Of a stretch of DNA of 64,000 nucleotides, positions 3 to 58,783 are shown in pieces. Source of the stretch: Taxillus chinensis (Eukaryota; Streptophyta; Magnoliopsida; Santalales; Loranthaceae); assembly GCA_023512835.1 (NCBI GenBank), contig CM042088.1, positions 12,206,078-12,270,077 on the forward strand. The letters run 5' to 3'. Both the position numbers and the translations under genes were made by a program. A model generated the notes under the pieces. It ran no database searches and was not told the origin of the DNA. It was given only the letters and a program-made list of their open reading frames with translations. Every line of letters begins with the position of its first letter. The first letter of the stretch is position 1.

Positions 3-1391
3 GATCATTTATCAAGACTGGAAACCAACAAAGATGGGATTCAGGAACTTGATATCCAAGCATCCTTTCCTGATGAGCAGTTACTGTCTTGTGAAGAAAC
101 CACCCCTTGGTTTGCTGACATTGCTAATTTTCATGCATGTCAAATTGTGCCAGAAAATTGTACATACCAACAGAAGAAACGGTTCTTACATGAAGTCCGG
201 CGATATATATGGGAGGAACCAGTTCTGTATAAAAGATGTGCTGATCAAGTAATCCGTCATTGTATTCCAGAGGCAGAAGTACCAGCCATTCTCAACCATT
301 GTCATGCTTCTTTATATGCTGGTCATTTCGGTGTTCAAAGGACAGCTGCGAAAATTCTACAAAGTGGTTTTTATTGGCCAACACTTTTTAAGGACACTTA
401 CTTATTTGTAAAGGCATGTGATAAATGTCAGCGTATGGGTGGAATTACTAGACGCCAAGAGATGCCACAAATTGGAGTTCTTGCAGTTGAGTTATTTGAT
501 TTGTGGGGGATTGATTTTATGGGTCCGTTTCCTATATCATCTAGTTATTCTTATATACTGGTCACTATGGATTACATGTCCAAATGGGTGGAAGCAATAG
601 CAACGCGAACAAATGATGCTCATGTGGTTACTTCTTTCATTCATAAAAATATCTTTACCAGGTTTGGTACTCCTAGAGCAATAATCAGTGATGGGGGCAG
701 TCATTTCTGCAACAAATTGTTCGCTGGTTTACTTAAGAAGTATGGAGTGCAACACAGGAAATCTTTGGCTTATCACCCACAAGCCAATGGTGAAGCAAAG
801 GTTTCTAATCGTGAGATCAAATAGATTTTAGAGAAAATAGTGGGTTCCAACAGAAAGGATTGGGCTTTGAAATTAGATGATGCTTTATGGGCATATCGAA
901 TAGCCTTCAAAACACCGATTGGAATGTCACCCTATCGATTGGTGTTTGGTAAAGCATGTCATCTGCCAGTTGAATTAGAGCACCGTGCATATTGGGCTAC
1001 AAAGAAGTTGAACTTAAATCCACTTGTAGCTGGAGAGGAAAGATTGCTTCAATTAAATGAGCTTGATGAGTTCAGGATGGAAGCTTATGAAAATGCTAAG
1101 TTGTATAAGGAGAAGAATAAAGCATGGCATGATAGCAAAATTCTTCCACATACCTTTCACCCTGGTCAGAAAGTACTATTGTTTAATTCTCGACTCAAAG
1201 TATTTCCTGGTAAGCTCAAATCCAAATGGATGGGACCATATACAGTCAGAACAGTGTTTCCTTATGGTGGAATAGAGATTGAATCTCCTGCAGGTGGGAT
1301 ATTCAAAGTCAATGGCCAGCGCCTAAAACCTTACTATGAAAATGAAGAAACCAAGGTGTCGGAACACATCTCCGTACCATTACATGCTTAA
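3..1391 (+). pseudogene. pol: Element D pol: RNase H tail and integrase (one stop codon)
   Basis: One frame runs from base 3 to the TAA-side end at 1391, broken by TAG at 822-824 where relatives have Gln. It starts with the RNase H end motif DHLSRLE. The integrase follows: a zinc-binding region with two His (HCHASLYAGH) and a C-x2-C pair (CDKCQ), then the catalytic core with the first Asp in LWGIDFMGPF and the second in IISDGGSHF. The region of the third acidic residue reads HPQANGEAKVSN; relatives have QAE there, so the catalytic Glu seems changed to Lys. The C-terminal part ([23 protein letters not shown], given here by its start [18 protein letters not shown], and later KWMGPYTV) is typical of Athila/Tat integrases. 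The enzyme would insert cDNA copies; this copy is dead from the stop codon and the lost Glu. Confidence 0.88.
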
Positions 1392-3674: not shown

Positions 3675-6005
3675 ATGGTGCGGACTCGACAATCAGGTCC
3701 TGCATCTTCTTCCACTGATGAGGACAAGTTCTGTACGGTTTATACTAGCCATGTTCTTGACTGGCATGCTCTAGCTGGTACAGCATGTTCATGGACAAAG
3801 GAGATGCTTGGGAGGCTTGAAACACTTGGTTTGCGTCGGGTCCTTGCGGATCCGTGTCCCTTACTGATGGAAGAGATGACAGAATTTTACAATAATGCCG
3901 CGGTGGATGAAGATGAAACACTGATTTAAAGAGAAATCCAAGGCTTGGTGATCTTCATTTCAGCAGACATCATCCAAGACTGTTTTAACCTTCCAGAGGT
4001 ATGTCATCCTTTCCCTGAAATTTCTGTTCACCAACTAGCGCGTTTGATGTGTTATACTGCTCCAAATGAGAGAAGACGACAGTATACAAAAAATGGTTTT
4101 AATGGTAGATACCGGTTCTTAGCACATATAGTGGGTAAATGTTTACTCTCCCAGCAAAAAGGAACTGATGGAGTCCCAACTGAGCATATGCAATGTATGT
4201 ATAGTATTGACCAAGGAATGCAAGTTAATTGGGCATCTATGATTTTTATGCATTGGGTCAAGTACTTTCATCAAAGAGGTTTTGGTAGATTGCTCACACA
4301 CATTCTGAAATATCAACATCCTTCTGTGTTTGGGGTACTAAAAGGCAGTCCATATCCTCATAATTTTATAATAAGAGATTTTTCAGAAGATGGACATGTA
4401 GGTTCTCGCCTGAGGGGGAGATGGGCTCCTCTCAAAACCAGAAGCAAGCCAGCCACACAGCAGGAGGCTAAACCAGCTTATAGACAATCTGTTCATGCTA
4501 TTTCTACTGCTGAATATTTTAACGAGCAAACATTTTCTGCTGCTGAGACTGATGGGGAATTACTAGCTCATTTATACCCTCTTAGAGCTTCTTATGCTTA
4601 TCATAATATTCATATGGAAGCTGCTATGAATTTTTGGGGACAGTATGGAGCATCCATGGCTCCTAACAGAGATGTGGTATTATGGGCTTATGCACATCAT
4701 GAAATTACTAGTGAACTGAGGGATGCATTATTGGCTATGTTAAATAGACAACAAGGTGCAACATCTTTTAGCAAAAATGCTACGCCTCAGCAACCATCTT
4801 CAAGTAGGCCTGCTACCGAAACACCTCCGCGTGCATCTGTTGATTCTAAGATAGCCCATTTGGAGATACTAGTAGGTGAGTTACGGCAGGAACAAAAGGA
4901 TACCAGGGGCCTCATCAAAAAGCTTTTTTCTAGATTCACCAAAAGAAGCAAAAGTCGTTCTGTCACTCCTCCAATGGACATTCCATCACCCCCTGCTGTC
5001 TCTTCACCTCTGCACCAAGCTGCTAAGGATCAACATTATTCACCATCACCTCCTGCGGTATCCTCTCCTCTGCGTCAGGCTTCCGTTCCTTTTCACCCAC
5101 CGACTTCTCCCGTTGCTGAAGCAACTGCCCAATATAACGCACCAGAATGGGATGACAATCCGATAGCAGTTTTACCTTTGAATATCTGGGTTCCTCCTTC
5201 TTCAGCTGAGGCTTATCCATCTTCTTCACAAATACCTATACATGACAGCCTTACTCAGCAGCTTCATCTTCAATTAAACCCAGCCATGGAGACTTCAACT
5301 GCACGTGTGGCTTATTATGATTATATGTTTGCCTCCCAAATGCTGCGGCGTTCCACCGGTTCTGCAGATACTCTCATTCCAGATGCCTTACGCAGAATTG
5401 TTGGACCGGAGTGGTTATCTATTGTTGATATTGATCATTTTGTCTACACCTTGCGGCGAGTGGTTGTTAGTCAAGCAGCTCGTTATCCACGGGCATTTGA
5501 CACTGAAGTTCTTCCATGTATGCTTGCGTCTTCTCCCAGCTCTATGAAGACCTTGCGAGCTCAAATGCGGGGAGAGTGTGATGGCATTCAGCCTTGGTCT
5601 GGCATGCATTCTGTCCTTATTCCAGTGCATATCCTTAATCACTTTGTGCTGCTTCACATTGACTTGGTTGGCCATGTTATATGGTTATATGACTCTTATC
5701 AGGGCTATGGGTTCCCCACACGCCAAAAAGAGTTAACCAAGGGACTTATACGCCGTTTGAAGAGTGCCATGTCTGATGTGGGATTAGTTTCAACCAGGAT
5801 TCCTTTCCGCACGCACAATGAATTTCATATTCCTCAACAACCTGATGGTGGTAGCTGTGGCGCTTTTGTCTGTTATTTTATCATTGCTTTTCTTCAGGGG
5901 CGTACTTCATGGGATTTTGGAGAAACGTCAGGTGTTTTCGCTGATGCTTTGCGGGAAATGGTCGTGCAATTGATTTATTTTTATAGTTTACCAGCTGTTC
6001 ACTAA
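3675..6005 (+). CDS. Element D third ORF: plant transposon-type N domain plus Ulp1-like (C48) cysteine protease, one stop codon
   Basis: A frame of about 776 codons from ATG at 3675 (MVRTRQSG) to TAA at 6003-6005, with one in-frame TAA at 3927-3929 (CAA to TAA would fit). Residues about 1-290 form a helical domain (EEMTEFYNN, ISADIIQDCFNLPE, LLTHILKYQHPSVFGVLKG) like the N-terminal part of plant transposon proteins. Residues about 350-520 are Ser/Pro-rich with a short repeated SPPAVSSPL. The C-terminal 200 residues look like the Ulp1/SUMO-protease fold: His in NHFVLLHIDL, Asp in IWLYDS, then QQPDGGSCGAFVC with the Gln-x5-Cys spacing of Ulp1. I see no signal peptide or membrane helix, so it is not a classical envelope. 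Family activity is cleavage of SUMO-like conjugates; the target in this element is unknown. Confidence 0.75.
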
Positions 6006-7641: not shown

Positions 7642-7643
<2 letters not shown>

Positions 7644-7690
7644 GACGGCTGGTGGAGCAACAAACCCTAAACCTAAAACAGAGGCTTCTC

Positions 7691-7771
7691 CCCCTTATAT
7701 AGACAACACAACATCAAAACGACGTAGTTTTGATTAAGTGAACCCCAGCATCAAAATGACGTAGTTTTGAT
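7691..7771 (-). promoter_or_regulatory. C LTR core promoter: TATA box with two ACGT palindromes
   Basis: Reading the - strand, two near-palindromes with the ATCAAAA...TTTTGAT frame and an ACGT centre (7750-7771 and 7713-7734) precede a TATATAAG box (about 7693-7700). The solo LTR at 42102 has the same pair and TATA in + orientation. Confidence 0.65.
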
Positions 7772-20774: not shown

Positions 20775-21047
20775 TCCTCCCCACCTTAGGACTTTTCGTC
20801 CTCAAAAACAAAAGACATGCCCAAAGGGCATAGCAAAATTCAAGCTCAAGCACTGCACGACAACAAGACACAAACACATGATCATCAACATGATCACCAA
20901 CCACACATGTGCAATGCAACTCACAACAAGCCAAACAAGATGCCAACAAACAATAACCACATTTCTAGTAGAACCACATAAAAAACATATGAATGCATAA
21001 AACATAACTCATACCTCAGGGAAGGTCCTCACATCCTCCCCACCTCA
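20775..21047 (-). other. Element A polypurine tract and its duplicate
   Basis: On the - strand CCTAAGGTGGGGAGGA ends at the LTR start (20775-20790). A near copy, CCTGAGGTGGGGAGGATGTGAGGACC, lies at about 21022-21047 just after the integrase stop; it even continues into an LTR-start-like TGTGAGGACC. Element C has the same doubled layout. Confidence 0.6.
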
Positions 21048-38434: not shown

Positions 38435-40514
38435 TGTTGGAAACACAGGATTTGATGAAGCTGCCAAATTATAGTCTAAGTCTGGAGACTCGAAGAACCG
38501 AAGCTCATAGGGTCTAAGAGTCGTAGTTCATAGAAGTAAAACTGTCACAGGACACGATTGGTGGGAGGCTCGCAGGCTCGTAGGGTCTAGAGACTCAAAG
38601 CGAAACAGTGACAGAACATTGCAACTCGTAGATCAAGGGTCGAACGTCGTAGAGTCATAGTACAGAAAAGAGAGCGTTATTGGAAGCGTCAATAAGTTCG
38701 GAGGCTCGTAGAGTCGAAGAATTCTTAAGAACAGTAACCAAAACTAAATGACTCGTAGACTCGTAGAATCGTAGACTCGCAACCCGTAGAACTGTAGAGT
38801 CCCCAAAAATACTTAAGTCAATTAACAGAACTTAAACTACCACTAGACTCAAAGACTCATAGAGTCGTAGAGTCGAAGCCTTAGAACACTGTTAAGAAAA
38901 CAGGACTCGTAGACTCGTAGATCAAAAGTTGTAGAATCGAAGCCTTCAAACAGTGTTAAGAAAACCGGATTCGTAGACTCGTAGATTGAAAGTCGTAGAG
39001 TCGAAGCCGTACTGTTAAGAACACTGGACCCCTAGACTCGTAGGATTGAAAGTCGAAGAGTCGATGCTATAAAGACTAGCAAACAAATGAAACTATAACT
39101 CAAGGGTCGTAGAGTCATAGACTCATAGACTCAAGGGATACAGTCACTATAAAGAAATTGCCACACTTTCAGACTCGGAGATCGATGGCTGAGAGTTGTA
39201 GCTGAAGGGTCTTAGCCATACAGAAACTCAATTTATGATCCTCTGTGAAAGACTAAGTAAGAAAAGCGAAGTTTAAGACTCGTAGAGTTGAAAATTTTCA
39301 GAACCACTTAGTCAAATATAGTAAACTGAGAGACCCGAAGGTCGTAGACCCGCAGAACTAGGGTCGTAGACCCGCAAAACTAGGGTCGTAGACTCGTAGC
39401 TATAATAACAGGTAGATTAGATGGACTCGAAGAAGTCACTCTAAGCGATTATTCTAAGAGTCGCAGACTCGCAGAGTCGTAGACTTTAGTTAACGGAGTG
39501 ACACAAAAGGCTAATCCATCCTGAACTCTAGCCTCGAAGACTCAAAGATATGAGTCGAAGACTCACAGAAACAATATAAAGCCTGAAGCAAAACTTCGCA
39601 ACTTCTGACAGGTTCTAACTGAAATCTTCGAGTCACTAAACCTACGATGCATCTACCTTCGAGGCAGACTTACAACCCTAAACACAGCCACTTAGTGATA
39701 TTGTCAGCTAGGGTTTGTACAGCAAGTCTGCGTCGTCCCGAGCAGTTGAGCGCATTAATGACACATTAATTGCTGCCAACTACCACCCATGGATGAACGG
39801 CCAAGATCGACTGCATGCCAAATACACAATATGGGCATCTGATCTGCAAATCAAAGCAGATCAACTCATCCCCTGACATTCCGCATTTTCAGTGGCGGGA
39901 AGTCAGTTTGTCGGGATGGACATCATGGCGCACGAGCACTTTAATCTTAAAAATATATCTCTCACGCACTTAACGACTAAATCAAGAGTTTAACCTCTCT
40001 CTCAAAAGAAGGAAACACACAGAACACAAGAAGGTGGTTCTGACACACTTGAAATAAATAATCCTTTGAAGAACCAACAAGAAAGAGTTCCAACGATAGA
40101 GAGAGAGAGAGAGACAAGGAGAGAATATTGAGAAGTGTTGTGCGCCGCGGTGAATCAAGAACAAGAGAGCAATCCATCTGATTACTCAAGAACCTTTTGT
40201 TCATCAAAGATCTAGCACTTGCATTAAGTCTTAATCTCTGTGTTGTTTGTTTTCCACACTTCGATCTATCATAAACCATCTCTTTCACAACTGAAATCTG
40301 TTGAGAAAAGAGCATTTACTCTTATCTCAGTTTTGTCTGATAGTTCATCATCACTCACGTTATCCTCACAATACAACTATCATCTTCTCCATAAATACTT
40401 CCATCATAGTCATCTGTAGAGTAATCCAAAACCAGCTAATAGTCTAGCTTTCATCATAGTCACACATGAAGAAAGTCTATTCACCCCCCCTCTAGACTCA
40501 CTTTGGGACCTACA
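38435..40514 (+). repeat. Element F 5' LTR (2080 bp)
   Basis: Starts TGTTGGAAACAC and ends TTTGGGACCTACA. The pair at 53472-55538 differs by scattered changes and small indels. From 38470 to 39600 it is full of the words ACTCGTAG, GTCGTAGA, GTCGAAG and GACTCG. A GA run (40098-40114) lies near a TCTCTCAAAAGAAGG block. Confidence 0.92.
38470..39600. repeat. ACTCGTAG / GTCGAAG word array in the F LTR
   Basis: Dozens of degenerate words (ACTCGTAGAC, GAGTCGTAGA, AGAGTCGAAGCC) with irregular spacing, plus larger near-repeats of about 60 bp (AAGAAAACAGGACTCGTAGA type, 38889-39050). The same array is at 53500-54670. Element A, a gypsy family, has the same words in its LTR. Confidence 0.85.
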
Positions 40515-40555: not shown

Positions 40556-42101
40556 ATGGCCGACATGGATTCCAGCAGTGCAGCTCTAGCTCCCGAACAG
40601 GCTCCAGTTCCTGTTGAGGAACTTAAGGCCAGTCGTGTTCCAGAGGAAGGAGCGACTGGAGACCAGGAGCAGGAAGAACCGAGTACCAGCAGCAACAAGA
40701 AAGAACGAGAAAACTTCTATGATGTTTTGCCTGGCTCATCCTCCCAAGTACCTATGTGCACACCTGCTCGTTTTTCCAAATGGAAAGCAAGGATGAGAGC
40801 ACACCTAGACATGCTCGACACGTATCTCTGGGAAACAATAAAGAACGGACCTTTCACTCCAAAGATTGTGCAGAGAGGTCAGTTAATGACAAAAGACCCA
40901 GATAGTTGGTCTAAGGTGGAGCAGAGAAAAGTAAAGCTCGGCTTCAAGGCAAAAGCCGTACTTTTCTTTACACTCGATGATGACATGTTCACGGATGTGT
41001 AGGATGTTGAGACTACTAAAGAGGTATGGGACAAGCTCTGTCTCAAATACAGGACAACAAGATCTCCATGCTCAAACAAAAGTATGAAGCCTTCAGATGT
41101 GAACCGAAGGAGTCATTGGATAGTATCTATAAAAAGTTCATAGGTCTGATTCAACGGATGAAGACTTACAACGTTGAGATCTCTCAAAAGGACAAGAATG
41201 ACAAATTTCTGAGATCTCTACCCTTGAGACTACTGATAAAAACATTAGCCATCCGTCAGCTGAAAGAATGGAAGACTTGTGCCTTGGAAGCGTTATATGG
41301 GGACCTCAAAATGTTTGAAATGCAAAAAGAAGATCTTGAGGCATTTGAGAACCCTTCCAAGAAAAAGGAGAAGTCTGTTGCCTTTAAGGGTGCTGTTGAA
41401 CCCCAAGAACCATCTTCAGAAGAGGAAAAAGATGAAGTTGATGAACTTGTTTCAGATAGTGTCTCAGATGAAGAAATGGCATTTCTGATCAAGAAACTGC
41501 TGAAGAGAAGGGGGAACTACAGGAGAAAAGCAAGGCATTCATCCTCATCCTTCTCTAAGGGAAAGGATAAGGAGAAGTTGCAATGCTACCACTGCAACAA
41601 GCCCGGCCACTTCGTTGCCGACTGTTACAAGTTGAAGAGGGAGAAAAAGGAGGCAGCTTAGCAAAAGAAGAAGATTAGAGGCTCCTCAAGTAGAAAGGAT
41701 GACAAGAGGAAGAAGGCTCTTGTTACAAACAAGTTCAACAGTGAAACTGAGGTGGAAGAAGAATCTTCTGATGAGGAGAAGAAGGAAAAAGGTCTCATCT
41801 GCTTCATGGCTGACCATTCACCTCCCCTCAAGGTAAGAACATATGAACAACTCTACATTGAATATGAAGATACCTATAGAGCTCTTAAAGAAATAGAGGA
41901 ACAATTTCTTCCTATGAAAGCTGACAAAGAAAGATACTATTCTAAATTGGAACAGCTTTCATGTGAATATAGAGACTATATAGATGATTATGAAAGAACA
42001 GAAAGAAGATTAAGAGCTGAAGTGAGTGAGATGAGAAGCACACACGATGATCTTTTGGACAAAGCTAGACAACTAAAAATGGCTAATAAAGACATCGATA
42101 G
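40556..42101 (+). pseudogene. gag: Element F gag, first part, with zinc knuckle
   Basis: ATG at 40556 (MADMDSSSAALAPEQAP). The first frame (CTPARFSKWKARMRAHLD) ends at TAG 41000-41002, a Gln position, then shifts. Frame 41026-41661 has ESLDSIYKKFIGLIQRMK, NDKFLRSLPLRLLIKTL and the knuckle CYHCNKPGHFVADC. TAG at 41659-41661, then the same frame continues with acidic and coiled-coil sequence (YIEYEDTYRALKEIEEQF). A C-family solo LTR cuts it after DID at 42101; the coiled coil resumes at 43933. The layout equals gag of element H. Confidence 0.85.
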
Positions 42102-43932: not shown

Positions 43933-44845
43933 GCTGGAAAAGGAACTAGCTGAAACTAAAGCAGAACTGGAAAAGGAAAGACAAATCAGTCAAAAGTGGC
44001 AAGATTCTGCTGAAATTGCATCCCACTTTAGGACCACTCCAGATGTTAAAGGTCTAGCCTTAGGTCTAGGTTTCTCTGAAGACCAAATAGCCAAGGCCCA
44101 GACTTACCCTGTGCAAACCAAGTGTCTTGCCGGCTTTGTTCCTGCTAGTAGTGTGCTTCTTGATTGTGGAAAGGAGGTACATATGGCTGTTACTAGTCTA
44201 CCCAAACCAGTAACACCCGAACTCAAAGACCTGGGTACTGTTGCATCTCAGGACAGTGATACAGTAGTTGCTGAGATAGAACTAAAAGCTAAACCTTCAG
44301 TCAACCTGTCCTCTACATCCCAATGCAAGGGTAAGGGTGTAGTTATTCCAGAGATAAAACCAATTAGACACACTACTACATTTGAGACTGGTTCATCCAG
44401 CAAGGCTGCTGCTCTCCAGCTTAAGTTTGTCTCTGATGGTAGAGTTAAGAACGGTCTAGGATATGTGAGAAAACCTAGGAAACCTCTTAACACTCCAGCA
44501 AAACCCTTGAGACAGAGTGTTCAACCCAAACCTGTTAAATGCCTCATATGTTGTGAAGTTGGACACCTCTCCTATCAGTGCAGATTCTACCCTGAGTATC
44601 TTAGGAAGGAGATTGCCACGGAAATCAGGGTAAACTTTAAACAGCTGAATTTCTCTAAAAATCTGCAGTGCAACAACAACTCTGATAGGAAGAAACAAAT
44701 CAGGCACATACAGGCTACCCATTCAAAAGACTTAAAGACCAAACCTGTGAAGAAAACTGTCAAACCTGTGCCTACTAAAGCTGCCAAAGATAATAATAAG
44801 GAAGGAAAATGTGCAAAAAATCTGAAGAAGGATCACCAAAATTAG
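43933..44845 (+). pseudogene. gag: Element F gag, second part
   Basis: The frame after the solo LTR (RLEKELAETKAELEKERQIS) continues the coiled coil. Then come low-complexity Lys/Pro-rich sequence and a second CCHC knuckle, CLICCEVGHLSYQC (about 44540-44580). It ends at TAG 44843-44845 after KKDHQN. The region before the first base (43808-43927) is LTR, not gag, although the frame is open. Element H has the counterpart with SGEIASSFRTDPD where F has SAEIASHFRTTPD. Confidence 0.83.
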
Positions 44846-46320
44846 CATGAAAAGTTAAATCTGCCCCTTCTTATTGGAAACCTAAACTGTCAACTGTAGC
44901 TTTCACTTGCCTAAAGCCCAATCTTAACTGGGCCCCCAAGACTTCGTTGCTCATTGTGCAGGAACAGGTACCTGAAGCTGAAAGCAGCCACTGGAAACAA
45001 AAGTTCAATTCCAGCCAGTGGTATCTTGACAGTGCCTATTTTGTGCACATGATAGATGATGCCTCTCTATTGAGTGAGGTAAGGGAGGTTGCAGCGTCAT
45101 CTGTCACTTTCGGGGACAATAAAAAGGGTAAGATTGTTGGTAAGGGTACTCTCTCTAATGGTTTTGTTTTAATTCAAAATGTATCTGTTGTTCAAGGTCT
45201 TAAACATAACCTGTTGAGCATAAGTCAATTGTGTGACAAGGGTTATGAAGTTCTGTTCACTAAATACACCTGCACAGTTATGGAACCCGTCTCCAAAGAG
45301 GTGAAACTAAATGGGCATAGACAAGGCAATGTCTACAAGTTGGTCTTTGGTAATGCTCAATCTGCTGAACCAATTTGTTTTCTGTCCAAAGCTTCACCTG
45401 ACATTAGTTGGTTGTGGCACAAGAGATTTGGCCATTTAAACTTTAAGACTGTCTAAACTGGCATCTCTTGATTTGGTTGAGGGCTTACCCAAGCATGTTT
45501 ATGACAAAAAACACCCCTGTAGGGATTGTCAGCTGGGTAAGCAGGTTAAACATTCCTTTAAGAGTGTAGATAAAACCTCAATCACACAACCACTCGAACT
45601 TCTGCACATGGACCTATGCGGACCAATTAATGTGTCTTCCCTATCTGGTGCACGATACTTTCTTATAGTAGTAAATACTACACCAGATACACATGGGTCA
45701 TGTTTCTCAAAAACAAAACTGAAACATTTGCGAATCTTGTTGAACTCTTCAATTGGGTCACAAATGTTAAGAGTCTTTCTATTAAATATATTCGTAGCAA
45801 TCATGGCAAGGAATTTGAATTTTTTGATATGTTAGAGTTTTGTACTGAACATGGTATCCAGCATAATTTCTCAGCACCAAGAACTCCACAACAAAATGGA
45901 GTAGCTGAAAGAAAGAATCAAACTTTAGTTGAAGCAGCTAGAACCATGTTGACAGGAGCTCAGTTCCCAAAATCTCTATGGGCTGAAGCTGTTGCCACTG
46001 CTTGTTATGTACAAAACATAACTCTAATCAACAAACGAGCCATGAAAACACCCTATGAGTTATGGAAGGGGAGGAGACCAAACATTGGTCACCTAAGGAT
46101 CTTCGAGTGTACTTGCTACATTCTGAACAATGGCAATGATTACTTGAACAAGTTTGATACCAAATCAGATGATAGATATCTTGTTGGATATTCCATGACC
46201 AGCAAGGCTTATCATGTATTTAATAGAAGAACCAAAGTAGTTGAAAAGTCTATTCATGTTTCTTTTGATGAGACTAACCATGGAATGCAGAAAGGAGACC
46301 CAAATGTAAATGAAGTGTAG
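44846..46320 (+). pseudogene. pol: Element F protease and integrase, with changed active sites
   Basis: Frame 44947-45456 carries the protease site as WYLDSAYFVHM; relatives have DSGCS, so the Gly is Ala and the Cys is Tyr. Integrase: zinc region WHKRFGHLNF, then a shift at about 45456, CRDCQLGKQVKHSF, HMDLCGP (first Asp), a second shift at about 45680-45700, IRSNHGKEF (the second Asp is Asn), PQQNGVAERKN (Glu kept). The end has FECTCYILNNGND and GYSMTSKAYHVFNRRT. It stops at TAG 46318-46320. Protease and integrase are both clearly inactive. Confidence 0.86.
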
Positions 46321-48211
46321 GACATTGTCATTGTAGAAGACTAAGACACAGATAATCCCACTACAACAGAAACAATGGAAGATACACCTGAACCCAATGA
46401 ACATAAAGCTGAACTGGTAGCTGAGGAACCAAGTCAAAAATCAACAGAAAATCATGAATCTAACATTCAACCTGTTCAGACTCTGCCACTTCTACCAGCT
46501 CAAGAGTCTGACATTGAGCAATTGGGCATTCATCATGAAGAAAGAGAAGACCTTCCAAAGGCAAGAAGAAGGTTAAAGGACCACTCTTCTGAACTGATAA
46601 TGGGAGATCCTGCTGCTTAAGTCAAAACAAGGGCTGCCACACTTCATGAAAACCTGTATATGTGTTTCCTATCACAAGTGGAGCCAAAGTCAGTTGATGA
46701 TGCAGTTTAGGATCACCATTGGATTGATGCGATGCAAGAAGAATTAAATCAGTTCAAAAGACAGAAAGTATGGGAGTTGGTTAACAGGCCCAGATCACAG
46801 CAAGTCATTGGCGTGAAATGGATCTTCAGAAATAAACTTGATGCTGATGGTGTTGTAATCAGAAACAAGGCCAGACTGGTTGCAAAAGGATACAAACAAG
46901 AAGAAGAAATCGACTATGATGAAACATTTGTACCAGTTGCTAGACTGGAGGCCATTCGCATGTTCTTAGCATATGCAGCATTCAAGGACTTCAAAGTTTA
47001 TCAGATGGATATCAAGAGTGCTTTCTTGAATGGAGACCTCCAAGAAGAAATCTATGTTGAACAACCACCCGGATTTCTAGAGCCAAACCAAGAGCACAAA
47101 GTATACAAACTGAAAAAGGCTCTTTATGGACTAAAACAAGCTCCTAGAGCGTGGTATGAAACATTGTCAGAGTTTCTGATCAAGAATAAGTTTAGAAAAG
47201 GCAAGATTGACCCCACACTGTTTCTCAAGGAAGGAAAAGGATCACCCTTGATCGTCCGGATTTATGTGGATGACATCATTTTTGGATTAAGGGATAAAAA
47301 GCAATTTGGAGACTTCTCCCATCTAATGAAAAGTGAATATGAAATGAGTATGATGGGAGAACTCTCATTCTTCCTTGGATTGGAGGTCAAACAGTTGGAG
47401 GATGGGATTTTTATCAGTCAAACCAAATATACAAAGGAGATACTGAAGAAGTTTAAGATGACTGATGTGACACACATGAAAACTCCCATCCCTACAAACG
47501 CCAAATTGGATATGAATGAATCAGGCAAGGAGGTGGATATCTCAGAATACAGAAGCATGATTGGATCCTTACTGTACCTGACAGCAAGCAGACCTGACAT
47601 AATATTTGCAACATGCATCTGTGCCAGATACCAAGCTAATCCCAAGGAATCCCACTTGTCACATGTCAAGAGGATTATGCGGTATCTAAAGGGAACAGAG
47701 AATTTGGGACTATGGTATCCAAGAGAGTCTGATTTCAAACTGAGAGGATATTCAGATGCAGACTTTGCAAGATGCAGGATTGATAGAAAGAGCACAAGTG
47801 GAACATGCCAACTTCTTGGCAACAGACTTGTATCCTGGTTTAGCAAGAAACAGAATTCAGTTTCAACCTCCACAGTTGAAGCTGAATATATTCTTCCGAG
47901 AAGTCTGTTGTGCTCAATTGCTTTGGATGGCCAGTCAACTTTCAGACTATGGGTTTAACCTGAAGGCCGTGCCTCTGTACTGTGACAATACAAGCGCCAT
48001 TGCAATCTCCAACAATCCTGTTATGCAGCCCAAAACCAAGCACATTGAGGTCAGATATCACTTCATACGTGACCATGTGCTAAAGAAAGACATTTCCCTG
48101 GAGTATATATCCACTGATGACCAGCTTGCCGACATATTCACCAAACCACTGCAAGAAGCCAGGTTGAATGAACTTCTGACAAAACTTGGCATGTTAGATT
48201 TAAATTCATAA
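46321..48211 (+). pseudogene. pol: Element F reverse transcriptase and RNase H
   Basis: After an acidic, stop-broken linker (46375-46620), frame 46732-47958 gives a nearly full copia [67 protein letters not shown], and the catalytic YVDD in [10 protein letters not shown]. RNase H follows: [38 protein letters not shown] shift near 47885 moves to frame 47756-48211 (YCDNTSAIAISNNPV, KTKHIEVRYHFIRD, DIFTKPLQ). RT is the best-kept domain of F; YVDD and the RNase H acidic residues are present. Confidence 0.88.
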
Positions 48212-49479
48212 ATCTCATAACATGTCGTGTGTTTCATTTCAACCTAATTACCTGTGCATGAACATAAGTACGACACTATTAATAACTGTTTATGTCTCCA
48301 TGAAAATTAGTAATGGCTAAGTGTGATTCATGCATGTCTACAGCGAGAAAGTGAGAAATCACATGGATGAAACTTGCCACCTCTGAACCTGGTTCAAGTC
48401 TTTTATGCAACCTGTCGTGAACCCTCAAGTCTTGAGTGAAATGAGTGCAATTCCATTTATGTTTAAATTAAATGATATTCCTATTACTTGTCATTTTCAT
48501 TCTGAGCGAATATCACCTGTGTGGCATTGCATTCATTAACTAGCAGGAACTGTTGTATCTCATGGTACTGTTGGCTTGCACGGAAAGGATCCTCAATGAT
48601 TTAATGCTTAAAGGATGACTGGGACTGTAGTATTTGAGAATCATAAAAAGCCTATTACTTAAAAAGAGCCGCTATCTTTCACTAGAAAAAGGCAAGGTGA
48701 AAAAGGCAAAATGATAATAGACAATAGATTGAATGCCTATCTTAGGGGGAGTCCTCACTATTCCCCTTGATTGTGTCTCTGTTAGAGTAATAGTTGGAGG
48801 TCAAATTGAATGATCTTGTGATTTAAAAAGATACTATGTTGAGCTCTGTCCATGTAAAAAGGCTCATGAATAAGCACTGAAAAATTGTGCTCCATAAAAG
48901 AAAAGAGACAACTCACACAGACAAGCTGAATGATCAAACTCCAAACTCTACCTGTACTATGTTGTAAATTAGGCAATGATAGAGTGTGTGTTCTGATTCT
49001 CAATAGGGCCATCTTATCTCTCAAGTCATCTATGCTGAACTGAAAATCATTGTTGGATCAGGGTTGTGGTAAGATTCGGTTGACCGTGAGCATACCAAAC
49101 AGTGTAATTCTAGTTCCTGAATCAAACTCACATGCTGATCCGAGAGTGAGAGGGTGAGGCCTCCGCTGAGTGAGTTTTGCTAAATATGTGAGGAGAATCT
49201 AAATTCATGAGTGGGTTGCTGCAATTGGTAAACCATGGTTTACTGGATGCTATGTTAACATAGTGATCATTTTCTCGCACAAGATGTAGTGTGACGAAGT
49301 ACTTAGTCATTTCTAAGGTAAATGGAGAGTTAAATGGCAGTGATACAGTAGCCATACATGTAAACTAGATATTACGGTTGAAAGAAATCAAGTTCTGAGC
49401 ACGTAATTTCAATTCCATTCACAACACTGTTCATCATGAATAATATTATGTGAGTTGTCATATACATCTCATGTGTGTT
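48212..49479 (+). other. Element F spacer after pol
   Basis: Noncoding. It contains one polypurine-like run, CTTAGGGGGAG (48741-48751), as known inside Sireviruses. The short frames in it match nothing I recognise. Confidence 0.6.
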
Positions 49480-50066
49480 GTTAAGTGTTGAAAAAGTCCA
49501 AAGAAATCCACCGCTCGCTGAATTCGCAGTCGACCTCGAAGCAAACTGCATTGAAGAAATGCGGGATCGAAGATTGCTGCTTCAAAGCCTTGAAGGTCAT
49601 AGCCTCGAAGCATCCTAATGCAGCTTCGTAGAGTCGTAGTCCAAAGGATCGAAGCGAGACGGAATCTATCACTTACTACTCAAGCATCGCAGACACATCA
49701 GCACGTCACTGTGCACTTAAAATTAAACTTACACCGACTTAAGGGGTGATGTGCACTCGTTGCTTGAGTACTCCAGCGGGTGGATCCGGATAATAAAAGA
49801 CGGGTCAGAGAAAAGAACGCGGACCATGAAGACGAACCGACAGAGTGAGTGACTTCTACGATACACTTCTCAACTCATATATAAGTCATTGATAGAGACG
49901 GAGCTCAAAGGTATGTTCGTTGTTTTCACACTCGAACCCTAACCCTAGAACTCTCTCTCTCTCTCTCTCTTCGATTCTGTCTCCTTCTCTCTTTCTCTCT
50001 CCTCTGACCACCTTCGAACCTTACAATCTCTCTCTACGAGTGTCTCTTTCTCTCTCTACAAGCTAA
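49480..50066 (+). promoter_or_regulatory. Candidate promoter of F third ORF with LTR-type words
   Basis: From 49520 to 49670 the words CCTCGAAGC (twice), GATCGAAG (three times) and CTTCGTAGAGTCGTAG match the array of F's own LTR. Further on there is CATATATAAGTC (about 49876, TATA-like) and a CT-rich stretch (49948-50062) right before the ATG at 50067, again as in LTR leaders. The combination looks like an internal promoter; no transcript data are at hand. Confidence 0.45.
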
Positions 50067-53061
50067 ATGGCAGGACCAAGCTCATCGATGGCCAACAATC
50101 TACGCAACATCGTCCTGGGATTCATCATCGACTAGGAAGCCATAGGCGATGCCAAAGTCATCTGGCTGAACGAATTCAGAAGTCGCCTCGATGAAACCGG
50201 TATTGCGTCTATCTGCTCAGGGTTACAAGACTTACTGATAGAAGATGTCGCGGAATTTTACGAAACCATGGCATTCGCTGGAGATGACCTGGTGGGAACT
50301 GTACACGGAGTGGAGATTCGAATCTCTGCCGAAACGCTCAAAAATGCACTTCCACTCCTGAAAGGTAACTTTGATTCTCTTCCTAGTCTCTCCAGAGAAG
50401 AGTGTAAGTCTTTTCTTGGGTATTCCAATCCCGGAAAGCAAGGCCGGGGAACCCTGAAGATTGAGTTTTTCGGTTAGGCGCTGGCGACTCTCATAGTCAC
50501 CAAACAGTGCCTATTGTGTAAGAAGACTGCTCATCACTCTGCAAGTCATGAGCAGATGAAGATCATGTGCAGTGTTCTACAGGGAAGACAAGTAGACTGG
50601 GAACTCAGATACACTCCATGATCAAAAGCAAGAAAGGACACTTTGGACTACTTCTCACCAAAGTCCTCAGGTTCCTAAACCCTGACGTATTCTACAACAG
50701 ACCTTCAGTGCCACTGCCGACCAAATACATCTTTAAAAGCATTTATGAGGATGGTCAGCTGGAGATCAAGTCAATGAAGAGGCCTGAGTCAAGTGCAAGA
50801 AGTCATGCAGAGACACAGCCAGCTCTATACGAGCCCCAGCTCGCATACCACGACAACCGGTTCGTGTCTCACAAACTTCTAGGGGCTCCTCTGCATCCGT
50901 CGCAATGATACATATAGCTGAAGTGGTGGAGAACATTGCCAGAACTCATCTCCCCACTGATTCTACACCTGAGGAGGCCCCTACTGCTGAGCTGTCCAAG
51001 GATACTACAGAAGTAAGAGTACCTGCAGATGGAGGGCAGACACCAGCATAGGAAACCCCAGAGGATAGGGGTACTACACCTGTACTGTTGAGCACTCTTG
51101 GGGAGTCTGAGCTAGAAGATTTTTATATGGAATATGCCAAGGCTCATATGACCCCCACAGATTTATGAAAGGCATGGATTACCTTTGGTAAACAGATGGT
51201 AGATAGAGACCATCTGATTAATTGGTTAGTTGATCAGGGTCTTATAAGAAGAGACCCAGTGGAAGCCATATCAGTGGTTGCCCCATCTCCCATCATGGTG
51301 GACTCACCTACCATATCTACTCCATATGATGCTGAGGTGGTAGGAATTGTTGTAGAAGAAGAAGCAGAAGAAGAAGAAACTCTTGGTGCTGCAGCCAGTG
51401 ACTCTGATGCAGGAGCTGTCCCACAAGTCCCTGAGACTGTGGAAAGGACTAACATGGCCACACCATCTGCACCTGTCTTTCATCAAGTGGCCACTCAAGT
51501 GAGTGAGGAGTTTGTAGCCAATATCCCAATGGCTATCCCAGTACCAGCTGCGTCTCACTCACGTTCTCTGATGGCCGAAGAAGTAGATCTTCTGGCAAGC
51601 ATGGTCATTAAGAAACTGATTTCCTCTGGCATCCTCAAGACATCAGTATCTCAGGCCTTTGAAGAACGACTGGCTACCATGAAGTCAAGTATGGAAGAGG
51701 TACGAACTCAAGTTGAATTATCAGACCGTACCCTCGACAAGGTGCAGCAAGAAATGACATCACTCACAAGTGTGACCACAGATGGGTTTAGACATCTGGA
51801 GGAACACTGTGAAGACATCAAAGGAGCTTACTAGAGACAATACAAAGGACTCAGTACAACTCTGGGAGCTATTCTTTCGGAATGTCATCATCTTGCCAGT
51901 GGCGAAATATCTCTTACTGTCAAAAACACACTCCCACAGCCATCCGACCAACCTGCACCTGAACCAGTAGATACTCCACAGCCAGCTGTGCCTTCCCCGA
52001 GCCACTCACCACCTCTATCTACTGCCACTTACATGTGTGGGCAAAAGCGTGCACATAAAACCACAGTCATCACCGATTCTGATGATGATGATGATGATGT
52101 TGCCATTGCAACCCGCATGAAGAAGCAGTCAGCTGCTCCCTACTAACCCTCTTTTTCCACTCAACCTGGTCCTTCCACTACCCATCCAAGTGCGGCTGAG
52201 TACACCATGCCTGCTTCACCTACTAAACCAGCCGCTACTACCACCGACCAACCATTCGCCCCACCTCGCATTATAACAACTAGAGGCACCTCAGCTGAAC
52301 TGGCTGCATTCAACACTTATGTTGCTGGGGATACCACTGCAAGGACTTGTGGCTATGAAGCCTTCTTCACCGGACCTAACCTGTGTCGACTACTACATGA
52401 CGGTGAAGAAATGGATAATATTGAGATGACTCAGTTCATCTTCGCACAGAAGTCATTCCTCGAGAAGCTACCTCTCCATATCCGCAGAGATACTAGGGTG
52501 GAACTCTGTTTGCCGATCATGTAGGCTCAGCTCCTCAATGATGCAACAATGATCGAGATTATACAGGGTCGCAGATATGAGAACTCCTTCCGTCCCTGGA
52601 ATGAGGTAGACCATGTGCTCATCCCCTACTTGTCCACATCCCCGCACTGGTTTCTTCTCGATCTTGACTTCAAGAACCAATAGATCGTCATCTTCGACTC
52701 CAAACCTAGTACTTTACTAATCTATCGGCGTGAACAACTGTGTGAATTCAATCACACTCTCACTCGTGTCATGCAAGGATATTCGCATGGGTGTGGTGGC
52801 TATCATCTCTCCAAACCGATGGAAATTACGCGAGTCAAGCAAGACGTTCCTGCTCAGGATGATGCTCATAGCTGCGGCTTCTATGTTTGCCATTACATTC
52901 GCATCCTGACCACCAACGGGTTCCCAGCTCTCGTGCCTGAATTTGATCGTGTGAGCAGTCGAGCGGCCTCGTTACACTTGACTCCTGCTCAACTCCTGCA
53001 CGAGCAAGCTGCTGCTTTTTTGTTTACACAGAGTGTATTGTACTTTGAATTTAACTCATAA
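50067..53061 (+). pseudogene. Element F third ORF: same N domain as D plus Ulp1-like (C48) protease, broken
   Basis: ATG at 50067 (MAGPSSSMANN), with TAG at 50133-50135. The N domain includes LLIEDVAEFYETMAFAGDD, RISAETLKNALPLLKG and, after a shift near 50590, LLTKVLRFLNPDVFYNR and KYIFKSIYEDGQLE. These line up with D's EEMTEFYNN, ISADIIQDCFNLPE, LLTHILKYQHPSVFGVL and FIIRDFSEDG. A Val/Glu-rich and coiled middle follows (51196-51834). From about 52207 one frame with two TAG stops gives the protease: His in PHWFLLDLDF, Asp in VIFDSK, QDDAHSCGFYVC with Gln-x5-Cys. So the catalytic residues remain although the gene has stops and shifts. No membrane helix is seen. Confidence 0.75.
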
Positions 53062-53471
53062 CTGTCTTGTACTCTAATTCCTTGTACACTGCATTTCTTG
53101 CTTTTCACTTTTCTGTGTACTTACTTTCTGTCAGATACCTTTTATACATGTCTTTGCTCTGCTGCCTGCTGTTCTGTACTTTCTTCCATTGCTCCCATGA
53201 GGTTTGTGTTCTGGTGCTTGTTCCTTACCCCAGAAAGGGGGAGTGTTTCTCAAGGGGAGCAAGTTCGTAGGGGGAGCTATCTTTGATAGGAGCCAGCTAA
53301 CGCAGCCTTCATGCCTACGGGGGAGAGGAGTGTGTATTTGTGAACTTTTGACTCCTCCAAATTCGTTATATGCAAAGACATCTTCTGATTAATCTAAAAT
53401 TGCCCATCAAACTTGTAGTCTCAGACTTCATGTACTCACCCGTTGTCAACTTACATTAAATAGGGGGAGAT
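53062..53471 (+). other. Element F 3' noncoding sequence with five polypurine runs
   Basis: AAAGGGGGAG (53234), AAGGGGAG (53252), TAGGGGGAG (53269), ACGGGGGAGAGGAG (53317) and TAGGGGGAGA (53461), the last touching the LTR start at 53472. Several PPT-like copies are a known Sirevirus trait. Confidence 0.75.
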
Positions 53472-55538
53472 TGTTGGAAACACAAGATTTGATGAAGCTG
53501 CCAAATTATAATCTAAGTCTGGAGACTTGAAGAACCGAAGGTCGTAGGGTCTAAGAGTCGTAGTTCGTAGAAGTAAAACTATCACAGGACACGATTGGCA
53601 GGAGGCTCGCAAACTCGTAGGGTCTGGAGACTCAAAGTGAAACAGTGATAGAACATTGCGACTCATAGATCCAAGGTCGAAGGTCGTAGAGTCATAGTAC
53701 GGAAAAGAGAGCGTTACTGCAAGCGTCAATAAGTTTGGAGGCTCGTAGAGTCGAAGAATTCTTAAGAACAATAACCAAAACTAAATGACTCGTAGACTCG
53801 TAGACTCGCAACCCGTAGAACTGTAGAGTCCCCAAAAATACTTAAGTCAATTAACAGAACTTAAACTACCACTAGACTCGAAGACTCGTAGAGTCGTAGA
53901 GTCGAAGCCTTAGAACACTGTTAAGAAAACAGGACTCGTAGACTTGTAGATCGAAAGTTACAGAGTCGAAGCCTTCGAACAGTGTTAAGAAAACTGGACT
54001 CGTAGACTTGTAGATTGAAAGTGATAGAGTCGAAGCCGTCGAACACTGTTAAAAACATTGGACCCATAGACTCGTAGGATTGAAGGTCGAAGAGTCGATG
54101 CTATAAAGGCTGGCAAACAAATGAAACTGTAACTCAAGGGTCGTAGAGTCGTAGACTCATAGACTCGTAGACTCAAGGGATACAGTCACTATAAAGAAAT
54201 TGCCACACTTTCAGACTCAGAGATCGATGGTTGAGAGTTGTAGCTAAAGGGTCGTAGCCATACAGAAACTCAGTTTATGAGCCTCTGTGAAAGACTAAGT
54301 AAGAAAAGCGAAGTTTAAGACTCGTAGAGTCAAAGATTTTTAGAACCATTTAGTCAAATATAGTAAACTGAGAGACCCGAAGGTCGTAGACCCACAAAAC
54401 TAGGGTCATAAACTCGTAGCTATAATAACAGGTAGATTAGATGGACTCAAAGAAGTCACTCTAAGCGATTATTCTAAGAGTCGCAGACTCGCAGAGTCAT
54501 AGACTTTAGTTAACGGAGTGACACAAAAGGCTAATCCATCCTGAACTCTAGCCTCGAAGACTCGAAGATATGAGTCGTAGACTCACAGAAACACTATAAA
54601 GCCTGAAGCAAAACTTCGCAACTTCTGACAGGTTCTAACTGAAATCTTCGAGTCACCGAACCTACGATGTATCTACCTTCGAGGCAGACTTACAACCTTA
54701 AACACAGCCACTTAGCGATATTGTCAGCTAGGGTTTGTACAGCAAGTCTGCGCTGTCCCAAGCAGTTAAGCACATTAATGACACATTAATTGCTGCCAAC
54801 TACCACCCACGGATGAACGACCAAGATCGACTGCATGCCAAATGCGCAATATGGGCATCTGATCTACAAATCAAAGCAGATCAACCCATCCCCTGACATT
54901 TCGCATTTTCAGTGGCGGGAAGTCAGTCTGTCGGGATGGACATCATGGCGCATGAGCACTTTAATCTTAAAAATGTCTCTCACGCACTTAACGACAAAAT
55001 CAAGAGTTTAACCTGTCTCTCAAAAGAAGGAAATACACAGAACACAAGAAGGTGGTTCTGACACACTTGAAATAAATAATCCTTTGAAGAACCAACAAGA
55101 AAGAGTTCCAACGATGAGAGAGAGAGAGAGAGAGAGACAAAGAGAGAATATTGAGAAGTGTTGTGCGCCACGGTGAATCAAGAATAGGAGAGCAATCCAT
55201 CTGATTACTCAAGAACCTTTTGTTCATCAAAGATCTAGCACTTGCATTAAGTTTTAATCTCTGTGTTGTTTGTTTTCCACACTTCGATCTATCATAAACC
55301 ATCTCTTTCACAACTAAGATTTGTTGAAAAAAGAGCATTTACTCTTATCTCAGTTTTGTCTGATAGTTCATCATCACTCACGTTATCCTCACAACACTAC
55401 TGTCACCTTTTCCATAAATACTTCCATCATAGTCATCTGTAGAGAAATCCGAAGCCAGCTAACAGTCTAGCTTTCATCATAGTCACACACGAAGAAAGTC
55501 TATTCACCCCCCCCTCTAGACTCACTTTGGGACCTACA
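53472..55538 (+). repeat. Element F 3' LTR (2067 bp)
   Basis: Partner of 38435-40514 with the same ends and the same word array (53500-54670). The 3' flank AAAAT does not repeat the left flank TACCT. Confidence 0.92.
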
Positions 55539-57361
55539 AAAATGCTTATGCCCAATAGAGTTTCTTAGGGTGTCACTCATAAAGAATGTCCTGGCCCAGC
55601 AAGAAAAGGTTCCCCAATTGAGTGAACCGACTCCCCAGCTGAAGCAAAATATACCGTCTAGGAATACAATGACCTCCTAGCAAAGTTCAATTGAGTCAAA
55701 AAAAAGTTTTCTTGATCATTTTGACATTCCAAAGAGTTAGAGCACCTTCAACTAAAGAGTTTTCCAAATAAAATCCGAATCTCATTCCCCAGCAAGTCCA
55801 TATGAATTTTAACAGCACCAACCCCCTAGCGGGTTAAGCTCCCTTTCAATATAAAATTAATTCTACACCCTAGACATGTATCTTATTGCACTCTATGCAT
55901 TGTTGTACCCCATTTTGACTGGGTTTGATCACAGCCAAACTTAACAAGGAAGCCCAAAGCAGAGGGTTACTTCTAAAACCTCAAGATGCTCCAAGGCCAA
56001 CACCAAATGATAGAGAATGAAATTCAGAGACTAACGCACTTGACTATGCTCAATTCTAGCTTAAAATGAGAAAGTTATGGCTAAAACAGCTTTGGTCATA
56101 AGAAATCCAACTTGTGAAAACATGGTCAACACCCCTGGTCAAATCCGGAGCATCAAGGTCAAATTTGAGCTAACACTGATCCGGAATAAAGAGCTTTAAC
56201 ATGGAGTAAGGATCCGAGCTTTTTATTAATTCAGACTAGCCTCCACTGATACGGAGTAAGGAACCAAGCTAACCTTAGCGCGGAGTAAGGATCCGAGCCT
56301 TCCATTAATCCAGACTAAACCTCCACTGGTACAGAGTAAGGATCTGAGCTAACCTTAGCACGGAGTAAGGATTCGAGCCTTCTATTGATCCGGACTAAGC
56401 CTTCACTGATACAGAATAAGGATCCGAGCTAAACCTTGACACAGAGTAAGGAATCCGAACAATTCCTTAGCACGAAATAAGGGATCCAAGCCATTTTTGA
56501 TCCGCATTGCCTCCCCGCTAGTTCACAAACACACGTTTTATGCAACCGACTACAATATCTACCTCAAAACACGTCCTAAGCGTCTCTAAATCGCACGGTA
56601 ACAGCGAAAATACACACATATAATTTCAGATTATATCCATCTAGATCTAAATCTAGATTTTCATTGTTGACTTCTCAACCCTCATGATATATACAGTTAA
56701 ACAACCCCAAATCACAGAAACACATATCGCAACTGATATAAATCATTTCTTAACCACAGATCTTATGCTAAACCATTAGATTTAACCCAAAATTGGATTT
56801 CCCCCAAAACCTAGGGTTCATGCTTAATTTCATGAATTATGACAAATTTGTGCATATCCAAGACAAGAAAGAGGTAAGAAGGTCAAAGACACCTACCTGG
56901 AATGATTCTTTAAACTCCACGAACCCAAATCACCAAGGCTTCAAGCTTCCATGCTTTCTCTCTCTCAAACGTACCAACGTGATAACAAAAAGTGAAAGCT
57001 CTTTCTTTTCATTCTATTTATATTTATGTCAATTATTGACCCCCCAAAGCAATAATTGACCTCCTAAAGCAATAATTGACCTCCAAGGTCACGAACTCTA
57101 AATTGAGTCAAATTACTGTTAAAATGCTCGAAATGACAAACACAATACTATTCAGATATTATTACACTCAAATGACTACTCAAATGCAAAGTTAATCAAT
57201 AAACCCCGAGAAAGTCAATAATCGGGCCACTCAGGGCCCCGACTTGGAATCGGGCCCAAGTACTGTCAAAATGCTCACATCGACGGCTACAGTACCTTTC
57301 AGATAGTGGCATTCCCATAGAATGATTATCTCTCAAGACTACCCAAATATGAGTCTTTACA
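55539..57361 (-). repeat. LTR I: part of another A-like chromovirus LTR
   Basis: 56525-57361 matches 19910-20774 of the A LTR with many differences, down to the end GAGTCTTTACA at 57361. It even repeats the TACAATATCTACCTCAAAAC target spot that F broke in A. Before it lies a CGGAGTAAGGATCCGAGC array (56160-56500). I recognise nothing in 55539-56160. The LTR's TGTCACGCCC end is missing. It is too different from the A LTRs to be the lost half of A's 5' LTR. Confidence 0.65.
56160..56500. repeat. CGGAGTAAGGATCCGAGC array in LTR I
   Basis: Six to nine units of about 40 bp, with ATACGGAGTAAGGA, GATCCGAGC and CGGACTAAGCC. Same core as the array in copia element H (30380-30930). Confidence 0.85.
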
Positions 57362-58260
57362 TGGCCCGTATCCTGAAGACTCTCCGAGCACTCTCGTGAG
57401 CAACGTGATTCCAAGGTTAGAGCTCACAAAGGTGAGTCGACCGGTAGCATCTTGCATACATTCGCATCCAAAGAGGTGGAGTATCCTAGAGTGTGATATA
57501 GAGTTGGGCAAGGTGGGTGAAGGAGCGCATTAGACAATCTTGGAAGCCTCTTATCCATTGGAGATTGTGTGAGCGGGGAACATCTTGTTGAACGTGTTGC
57601 AACCTGTAGGGAAGTGATGCCCAACCAATTGTTATTAAGCGAGCGTTGGGTGTCAAGGTGAATATGCCGTATCCTGCGAGAAAGCGATGTTAACACCTGC
57701 AATGAGGGCATTACGAGGATTGGGTGGAGGAGAATGTCACGCCCCGAGAATTCGGGACGTCTTTCAGTGGTACTTTCCGAATAGGAAGAAGTGCAACATG
57801 TAGAAGAGGGGCAGGTTGAAGCGTAGGCGGTGCGCAACGGAAGGCTCCAAACAGTTTATGTCGAAGAATGGATGGAATCCCTTTGGAGTTCAGACATGCT
57901 GATCCACTTGAGTTCGAAGAGCATGTTGCTAGTCAAGAACTTGATGTTGAAGAAAGGATTTGACTATCCTTACACAAATTGGTCGAGAACTGGAGCTGTT
58001 CTCTTGATGAGCCTAAGGTAGGGCAAAACCAGTCTACGTATGCTTCAACTCTCAAAAGCTAAACTTAGCGGACTCAGTAAAGGAAAGTTAAGTGCTGCAA
58101 CGGGTTAAGAGGCACAAAAAATGACCCCGTGACACGTGCCACTATGATGTATCATTTTTTTATCATAACCTTGGCTAGGAGTGAAAAACGGACCAGTCTA
58201 GTCTGACTGGTTCGATCCGTCGCCCGTTTAGGCCCACAAATTTAATGGACTAAGGACGAA
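57362..58260. other. Spacer between LTR I and the MBD9-like gene, with an LTR-like start
   Basis: No gene recognised. GGGTGGAGGAGAA followed by TGTCACGCCCCGAGAATTCG (57722-57754) looks like a polypurine tract and LTR edge of one more element, with a small hairpin (CCCGAGAATTCGGG). Neither frame over 57424-57837 matches a known protein. A MITE-like stretch with GGACCAGTC and GACTGGTTCG inverted words is at about 58190-58220. Confidence 0.4.
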
Positions 58261-58783
58261 TTGGTCTGGACCGATCCTCGGATCAAATTGTATTTATTTA
58301 TTTAAATATAATAAATTAATTTTTATTAAATATTTTAAAATATATTTAAATATTTATATTTTAAATTTTAATTTTAAAAATAATAAATTTAGGGTTTATG
58401 TGTTAATATATTAAATAAATTTAGTAATATGTTTAAAAAAAGATAAATAAAATAAATATTAGTTCACGGATCGACTGCGTTTATACGGACATTTATACGC
58501 CTAAATGAATTCAATTTTTTCTATCTGTCCATCCGCGGACCACCGGTCCGGATCTAGACACGGGATTGGCTTCCCTGCCCGCGTTCTCACTCCGTCTCCC
58601 ACTCTCCCTCCCTTTTTCCCTCTAAACTCTATACCGTCGATCCACCACCGCTTTACGTTTCCCAACGCTCGCATTCAAAGAGATCGAAATCGAAGCATTT
58701 CTCGAGTCGTCCGTCTCCGCCACCCCCCCTTCCCCCCCCGCAAAAAAAAAAAAAAACACAATGTCACAACTCCTAGGACAACG
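58261..58783 (+). promoter_or_regulatory. AT-rich upstream region and 5' leader of the MBD9-like gene
   Basis: 58288-58460 is almost pure A/T, then composition turns to the CT-rich leader of the gene (58560-58740) ending in a C run and an A run (58722-58757). No clear TATA box can be chosen. An upstream frame from 58505 is in phase with the protein, but its composition is leader-like. Confidence 0.45.

Follow-up and report, generated by a model that had tools for sequence, protein, structure and literature searches.

A third open reading frame with a Ulp1-type protease domain shared by a copia and a gypsy retrotransposon of Taxillus chinensis

The window considered here, a stretch of 64,000 nt from Taxillus chinensis (assembly GCA_023512835.1, contig CM042088.1, 12,206,078-12,270,077, forward strand), contains two long terminal repeat (LTR) retrotransposons, a copia element referred to as F and a gypsy element referred to as D, each carrying a third open reading frame (ORF3) downstream of its integrase (Table 1). 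Other loci of the same genome, of which 520.9 Mb were searched for relatives, are designated by L and a number. As far as sequence comparison can establish it, the two third ORFs descend from one gene, composed of an N-domain, a variable linker and a cysteine protease of the C48/Ulp1 type. In F, profile searches match gag, integrase and reverse transcriptase (RT) to copia families and the integrase precedes RT, whereas in D the RT and RNase H lie within 8 kb to the left of the window (L035), RT left of the integrase being the gypsy order; the difference in pol order reported in a first-pass annotation of this DNA is thereby confirmed. F combines the copia pol order with a sense ORF between pol and the 3' LTR, by which Sirevirus elements are recognized, and the gypsy pol order followed by a sense ORF after the integrase, by which Athila elements are recognized, is found in D and in its relative L036; both names are our assignment from presumed lineage features, which for Athila are those of gag and integrase. 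F ORF3 occupies 50136-53061, in sense orientation between the end of pol (48211) and the 3' LTR, and the window copy is no longer intact, with one stop in its first frame, two shifts of frame and six further stops in its last frame (51049-52683). D ORF3 extends over 3705-6005 with a single stop, located in its first part. The gypsy pol frame of L036 comprises 1240 residues, and its RT is 80% identical to that of D; 1.0 kb further on there is an ORF3 frame of 774 residues, 32% identical to D ORF3 over 704 columns.

Table 1. Positions of the features of elements D and F within the window.
Feature	Position	Strand	Basis or remark
D integrase	147..824	+	PF00665 61.4 bits, PF17921 56.3 bits
D ORF3 N-domain, first part, before the one in-frame stop	3705..3926	+	BLASTP E 2e-9 to L020, 9e-11 to L012
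D ORF3, remainder of N-domain, linker, C48 protease	3945..6005	+	PF02902 43.4 bits, PF20167 26 bits
F 5' LTR	38435..40514	+	LTR-pair comparison, borders by sequence; followed by primer-binding-site-like TGGTATCAGAGC
F gag piece (capsid and zinc knuckle)	41026..41661	+	PF14223, PF00098
F pol pieces: protease region, integrase, RT (46711-47958), RNase H	44851..48211	+	PF22936, PF13976, PF25597, PF07727 E 1.5e-80
F ORF3 N-domain, PF20167-like, two frames in the window copy	50136..50905	+	matches D 4128-4400, E 1.4e-4 and 7.8e-6
F ORF3 middle block and low-complexity linker	51052..52143	+	beginning common to L012-type ORF3
F ORF3 protease region, C48/Ulp1 type; His, Asp, Gln, Cys present	52147..53061	+	PF02902 22.7 bits at 52684-53058
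F 3' LTR	53472..55538	+	LTR-pair comparison; purine-rich AGGGGGAGAT just before

In addition to the C48/Ulp1-type protease, the two ORFs have in common an N-domain of about 220 residues. The four motif pairs that the first-pass annotation had listed for this domain are all present and in the same order, namely MEEMTEFY, ISAD, LLTHIL and FIIRDFSEDG in D (the first of them upstream of the in-frame stop, within 3705-3926) and IEDVAEFY, ISAE, LLTKVL and YIFKSIYEDG in F. When compared with D residues 1-520, the F pieces 50478-50618 and 50552-50905 each beat 500 of 500 shuffles; the piece 50136-50474 taken alone is not above chance in the same comparison, its score being reached by 119 of 500 shuffles; its partner in D is situated for the most part upstream of the ORF start used. 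Open segments of relatives also match D in BLASTP (L020, E 3.5e-18; L025, E 8.5e-18), as does L020 to the upstream piece of D (Table 1). A profile-profile alignment restricted to the N-domain, with two sequences a side, gives Prob 99.2 and E 1.4e-19 over 221 columns at 25% identity, which places the non-protease part of the two ORFs far above chance, and in comparisons of the L020 N-domain with L036 and D the score exceeds 1000 shuffles by 34 and 33 standard deviations, respectively. Segments of L020 entered the E-value, profile-profile, shuffle and distance tests; its carrier is not assigned to copia, since no copia pol was found for it, and the copia claim therefore rests on nine other loci that have an F-type ORF3 with a copia RNase H at the expected upstream place (hereafter copia-borne). 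All nine match the D N-domain (E 2e-6 to 2e-23) and the D protease (E 1e-4 to 6e-9), and six of the nine match the L036 N-domain, some of the matches running through a stop of a decayed copy.

The C48 profile (PF02902, curated cut-off 20.7 bits) is above its cut-off in all five ORFs scored, with 43.4 bits in D, 22.7 in F, 34.9 in L036, 56.4 in L020 and 61.8 in L012. His, Asp, Gln and Cys of catalytic type, whose roles in the C48 active site we presume, are retained by all 13 F-family copies in which the protease segment is present, and in D the active-site residues are present by eye in a comparison with SENP5/SENP1, a weak sequence match (E 0.04-0.2). Plant database entries named Ulp1 protease family are many. 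For the N-domain, the cut-off of PF20167 (Transposase_32, 45 bits) is reached nowhere among the ORFs scored, the values being 26 bits in D (E 9.7e-6), 19.5 in L020, 19.6 in both L012 and L036, 14.7 in L025 and, from 50136-50474 only, 14.6 in F (E 0.03). DUF1985 is absent from the profile lists up to E 10, where filters drop most weak matches. No match was returned by a protein-homologue search with D ORF3, nor any relative by phage tblastn and one IMG/VR scan with the N-segment of L020.

ORF3 is an integral part of the copia family to which F belongs. Locus L022 aligns with window positions 44812-54036 without a break (9267 columns, 91%), spanning pol, ORF3 and the start of the LTR; matches to F ORF3 DNA are 87-94% identical, and 29 of the 40 places scored (from 1156 candidates) are essentially whole. 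The search with F RT, in which 40 of 3261 candidates were scored, coincides with the ORF3 search on five copies, with an RT-to-ORF3 gap of 2099-2132 bp in each. The ORF thus has no ends of its own, so that neither of the results named in the first-pass annotation as contrary to its view, a separate insertion or chance-level alignment outside the protease, was obtained; the idea that it is a separate insertion beside F, or that the protease alone is shared, has a negligible probability: nested insertions are frequent here and a chromovirus at L009 and L015 first resembled the carrier, but the unbroken alignment from pol through ORF3 to the LTR start, the constant gaps and the homology of the N-domain without the protease all stand against such an artefact. 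The chromovirus, a chromodomain-bearing gypsy pol just upstream of the F-type ORF at both loci, was rejected as carrier and is regarded as a nested insertion, since in both L009 and L015 its LTR pair (96.7% and 97.9% identical) is complete before the ORF begins. The two copies (L009:3718-4109, L015:8626-9010) belong to one chromovirus family, and each occupies a different locus, immediately upstream of an F-type ORF. At L033:4206-4370 (+), a copia integrase piece 84% like that of F abuts the chromovirus end, a sign of chromovirus insertion into a copia element.

A search of the genome with the C48 profile, in which 150 of 4308 candidates were scored and 26 of these 150 inspected, yielded 19 F-type, one D-type and five L012-type places and one other (L001). 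Nine of the 19 F-type loci have the copia RNase H on the same strand, at a distance of 1.9-2.0 kb upstream (in L025 as a 34-residue piece only). The L012-type ORF3 has a copia RT and RNase H 6 kb upstream on the same strand, with a geminivirus-Rep-like stretch in between, and its carrier is probably a copia element; the N-domain is seen in one of the five L012-type places (L012), the other four being assigned by protease and linker. In L037, copia pol and an L012-type ORF3 have a geminivirus Rep-like frame (5039-5962, +; PF00799 87 bits, PF08283 76 bits) between them. A fragment of a dehydrogenase E1 gene (PF00676 113 bits) closely follows the F-type ORF in L020 (909-1310, -), and likewise in L018; the two loci are 98% alike, and a gene capture by their carrier is possible. 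On the gypsy side, the D ORF3 protein gave 70 genome matches (65 places scored of 11,440 candidates). Of the 64 entries in the D-ORF3 list, which represent about 62 distinct places, at least 10 have an integrase on the same strand at a distance of 1.6-3.1 kb upstream.

Selection has kept ORF3 in the family of F. The ratios of nonsynonymous to synonymous substitution rates, derived from 7 to 15 copies per segment with decayed copies included, are 0.23 and 0.37 in the N-domain, 0.37 in the middle, 0.17 before the protease and 0.18 in the protease, beside 0.19 in RT, 0.35 in integrase and 0.22 in RNase H of pol. The divergence of ORF3 is at odds with that of pol. Copia RT compared by BLASTP with the gypsy RT pieces of the window and L009 gives E 1.1 at best, the RT of D standing outside that test, and copia and gypsy integrases give E 0.006 at best. 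Under the LG+G4 model, maximum likelihood (ML) distances, which are rough figures from few sequences near saturation, are 0.25 for RT and 1.56 for the N-domain between D and L036 within gypsy, and 3.3-5.2 for RT and 1.8-2.9 for the N-domain across the superfamilies. ORF3 thus evolves faster than RT within gypsy yet is closer than RT across the superfamilies, which argues against its descent together with pol. Inheritance from a common ancestor of copia and gypsy followed by loss in most lineages, for which the presence in both superfamilies and nothing more can be adduced, is on these distances highly improbable.

The far smaller divergence of ORF3 than of pol across the superfamilies points instead to passage between the lineages or to acquisition by both from a common source. 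The alternative to passage between retrotransposons, in which a single host or DNA-transposon gene of the same make-up was captured twice independently, would accord with the Ulp1 domains known from plant Mutator-like elements (MULEs) and CACTA elements, as described in parts of the literature (PMC13317346, PMC8978399), and with the N-domain of L012, which is as near to D (32% identity) as to F (31%). It is nevertheless a doubtful explanation: in a small survey (26 of the 150 scored places), 25 of the 26 C48 places are of F, D or L012 type and no outside donor was seen, and ORF3 occupies the same place and orientation in both carriers. The only other protein among the 26, that of L001 (C191:94603-95094), has the highest C48 score of the scored places (84 bits); it is encoded by a different long frame, located on a small contig, in which no match to the N-domain is visible. 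With an L012 N-domain equally near to D and F, passage in either direction and one event or two would be compatible. The first-pass annotation had proposed that one module was gained by both superfamilies or passed between them; its sharing, at odds with descent with pol, is upheld, and passage and gain by both are each retained as possible routes.

With respect to function, the active-site residues, the lack of a clear membrane segment and analogy suggest that the ORF3 protein may be a nuclear protease of SUMO or of other ubiquitin-like proteins. The N-domain would direct the protease to its targets, and the protease would strip SUMO from host factors that restrain the element; such a role as a nuclear SUMO-type protease is put forward by analogy. 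An envelope-like membrane protein, the frequent label of such third ORFs, appears most improbable in view of the protease domain with its active-site residues and, by hydropathy only, of the maxima above 1.6 (1.63-1.78), which sit within the protease domain in D, L020 and L012, values elsewhere not exceeding 1.57. The replacement of an envelope gene, which had also been proposed in the first-pass annotation, found no backing: remnants of a former envelope gene were not observed, and ORF3 may itself be the gene to which the term env-like is applied in these lineages. Relatives of C48 include the adenovirus-type maturation proteases, and a protease of particle maturation that cuts the proteins of the element, and not SUMO conjugates, would fit this fold class; we consider it improbable, given that an aspartic-protease region, recognized by similarity and presumed to serve as such, is already part of pol in both elements. 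On balance, we lean towards a gene of shared origin, kept by selection, which was passed between the lineages or captured from one source and which would act as a nuclear SUMO-type protease.

Several observations weigh against this reading. The ML distance of the protease across the superfamilies is 2.7-3.2, and the distances as a whole come from few sequences and are possibly saturated. The middle block is similar in L020 and L012 (E 7.5e-8), but between L020 and L036 it is no better than shuffles (z -0.3), and since it is not significantly shared there, only the two end domains can be called common. The unrelated PF20053 scores equal to or above PF20167 in L020 and L025 and, as the PF20167 scores stay under 45 bits, the N-domain is labelled 'PF20167-like' and is not counted as a member of that family. 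Ten of the 19 F-type loci are without copia pol at the expected place, whether with another ORF3 in between (L016), with pol absent within 4 kb (L030), with a locus that starts too late (L028, L013), with the N-part not seen (L014), with the chromovirus in between (L009, L015) or with no copia pol in about 5 kb (L018, L020, L027; for L020, none in a further 6 kb either). Lastly, yeast mutants read by the authors, in the available text, as lowering SUMOylation raise Ty1 RNA (PMC8585004), and loss of Ulp1 itself is among the mutants that raise it (PMC8585004), so that the yeast analogy is indirect.

Sense extra ORFs between pol and the 3' LTR, termed env-like, have been reviewed for plant LTR elements (PMC7264820). 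Those of Athila/Calypso (PMC1142308) and of SIRE1-like elements (PMC4093653), one a gypsy and the other a copia lineage, have the same position and orientation as ORF3 of D and F. According to the available text of these sources, plant env-like proteins share little sequence, only Calypso and Cyclops-2 appearing homologous (PMC1142308), and the Sirevirus env-like proteins resemble one another (PMC4093653); the published ORFs are presented as dissimilar to one another and as possible envelope proteins, whereas ORF3 of F and D is homologous across superfamilies and bears C48. A further counterpart is the 3' aORF(+) of the sunflower element Athila 14, which has a similarity to PF20167 as D and F ORF3 do and is predicted to be nuclear; it differs in its 487 residues and in that neither a protease nor a copia counterpart is reported in the available part of the paper (PMC11728184). 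The KIU genes of VANDAL MULEs, Ulp1-bearing and of VANC type (VANC, PMC5735166), likewise place a Ulp1 protease behind another domain in an accessory gene of a plant transposon, but these are DNA transposons and the other domain is DUF1985, to which the F- and D-type ORF3 has no match (PMC13317346). They occur in anti-silencing VANDAL elements, in which the role of Ulp1 is, by the same account, not known (PMC13317346), and Ulp1 in plant MULEs is described both there and in PMC2836005. A Peptidase_C48 domain is present in ORF2 of CACTA elements, where it is combined with Transposase_24 and not with the N-domain of F and D (PMC8978399), and the Ginger1 transposases contain an Ulp1 or OTU domain, i.e., a deconjugating-type protease in a mobile element, fused in this case to the transposase of animal DNA transposons (PMC2836005). 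In bdelloid rotifers, one accessory enzyme in the ORF3 of different retroelement classes has been read as gene sharing, although the enzymes there, a GDSL esterase and a DEDDy exonuclease, belong to animal elements (PMC5408684). The first-pass annotation knew of no earlier description of a shared module and, among the matches listed in open-licence PubMed Central, neither a third ORF with Ulp1 in a plant LTR element nor the sharing of such an ORF was found to be described, beyond the hints given by PF20167 in Athila and by Ulp1 in MULEs and CACTAs.

It may tentatively be suggested, as a proposition somewhat short of an even chance, that a single gene, having crossed superfamilies, makes up the envelope-like third genes characteristic of the two groups of so-called plant retroviruses, the gypsy elements of Athila type and the copia elements of Sirevirus type, and that it encodes not an envelope protein but a SUMO-type protease by which the element escapes host control. 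If this were true across plants, the third ORFs of two large groups of retrotransposons would be understood as a testable enzyme and no longer as envelope genes, and an accessory gene that passed between copia and gypsy, or was captured by both, would be documented, parallel to the rotifers. The conjugation of ubiquitin-like proteins would then be a host process that plant transposons of several kinds encounter, and is singled out because MULEs and CACTAs bear the same type of protease.

The LTRs of F are 92.6% identical to each other over 2101 columns, which at a rate that we take to be 1.3e-8 per site and year corresponds to an age of about 3 million years. Between its gag and pol, at ~42102-43927, F contains an LTR-like insertion (TGTCACGCC...CATTACA in the minus-strand reading) flanked by a CTATC duplication, with a similar sequence at 6440-8306. 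F is itself nested in another LTR (window 37299-38434 and 55539-57362) that resembles 18780-20775; at its ends there is no 5-bp duplication, about 1 kb of extra sequence follows the 3' LTR, and a 42-bp target overlap is seen on both sides. Outside F and D, the ORF at 58505-59383 has a PHD finger, with a PF00628 score of 26.9 bits that exceeds the cut-off.
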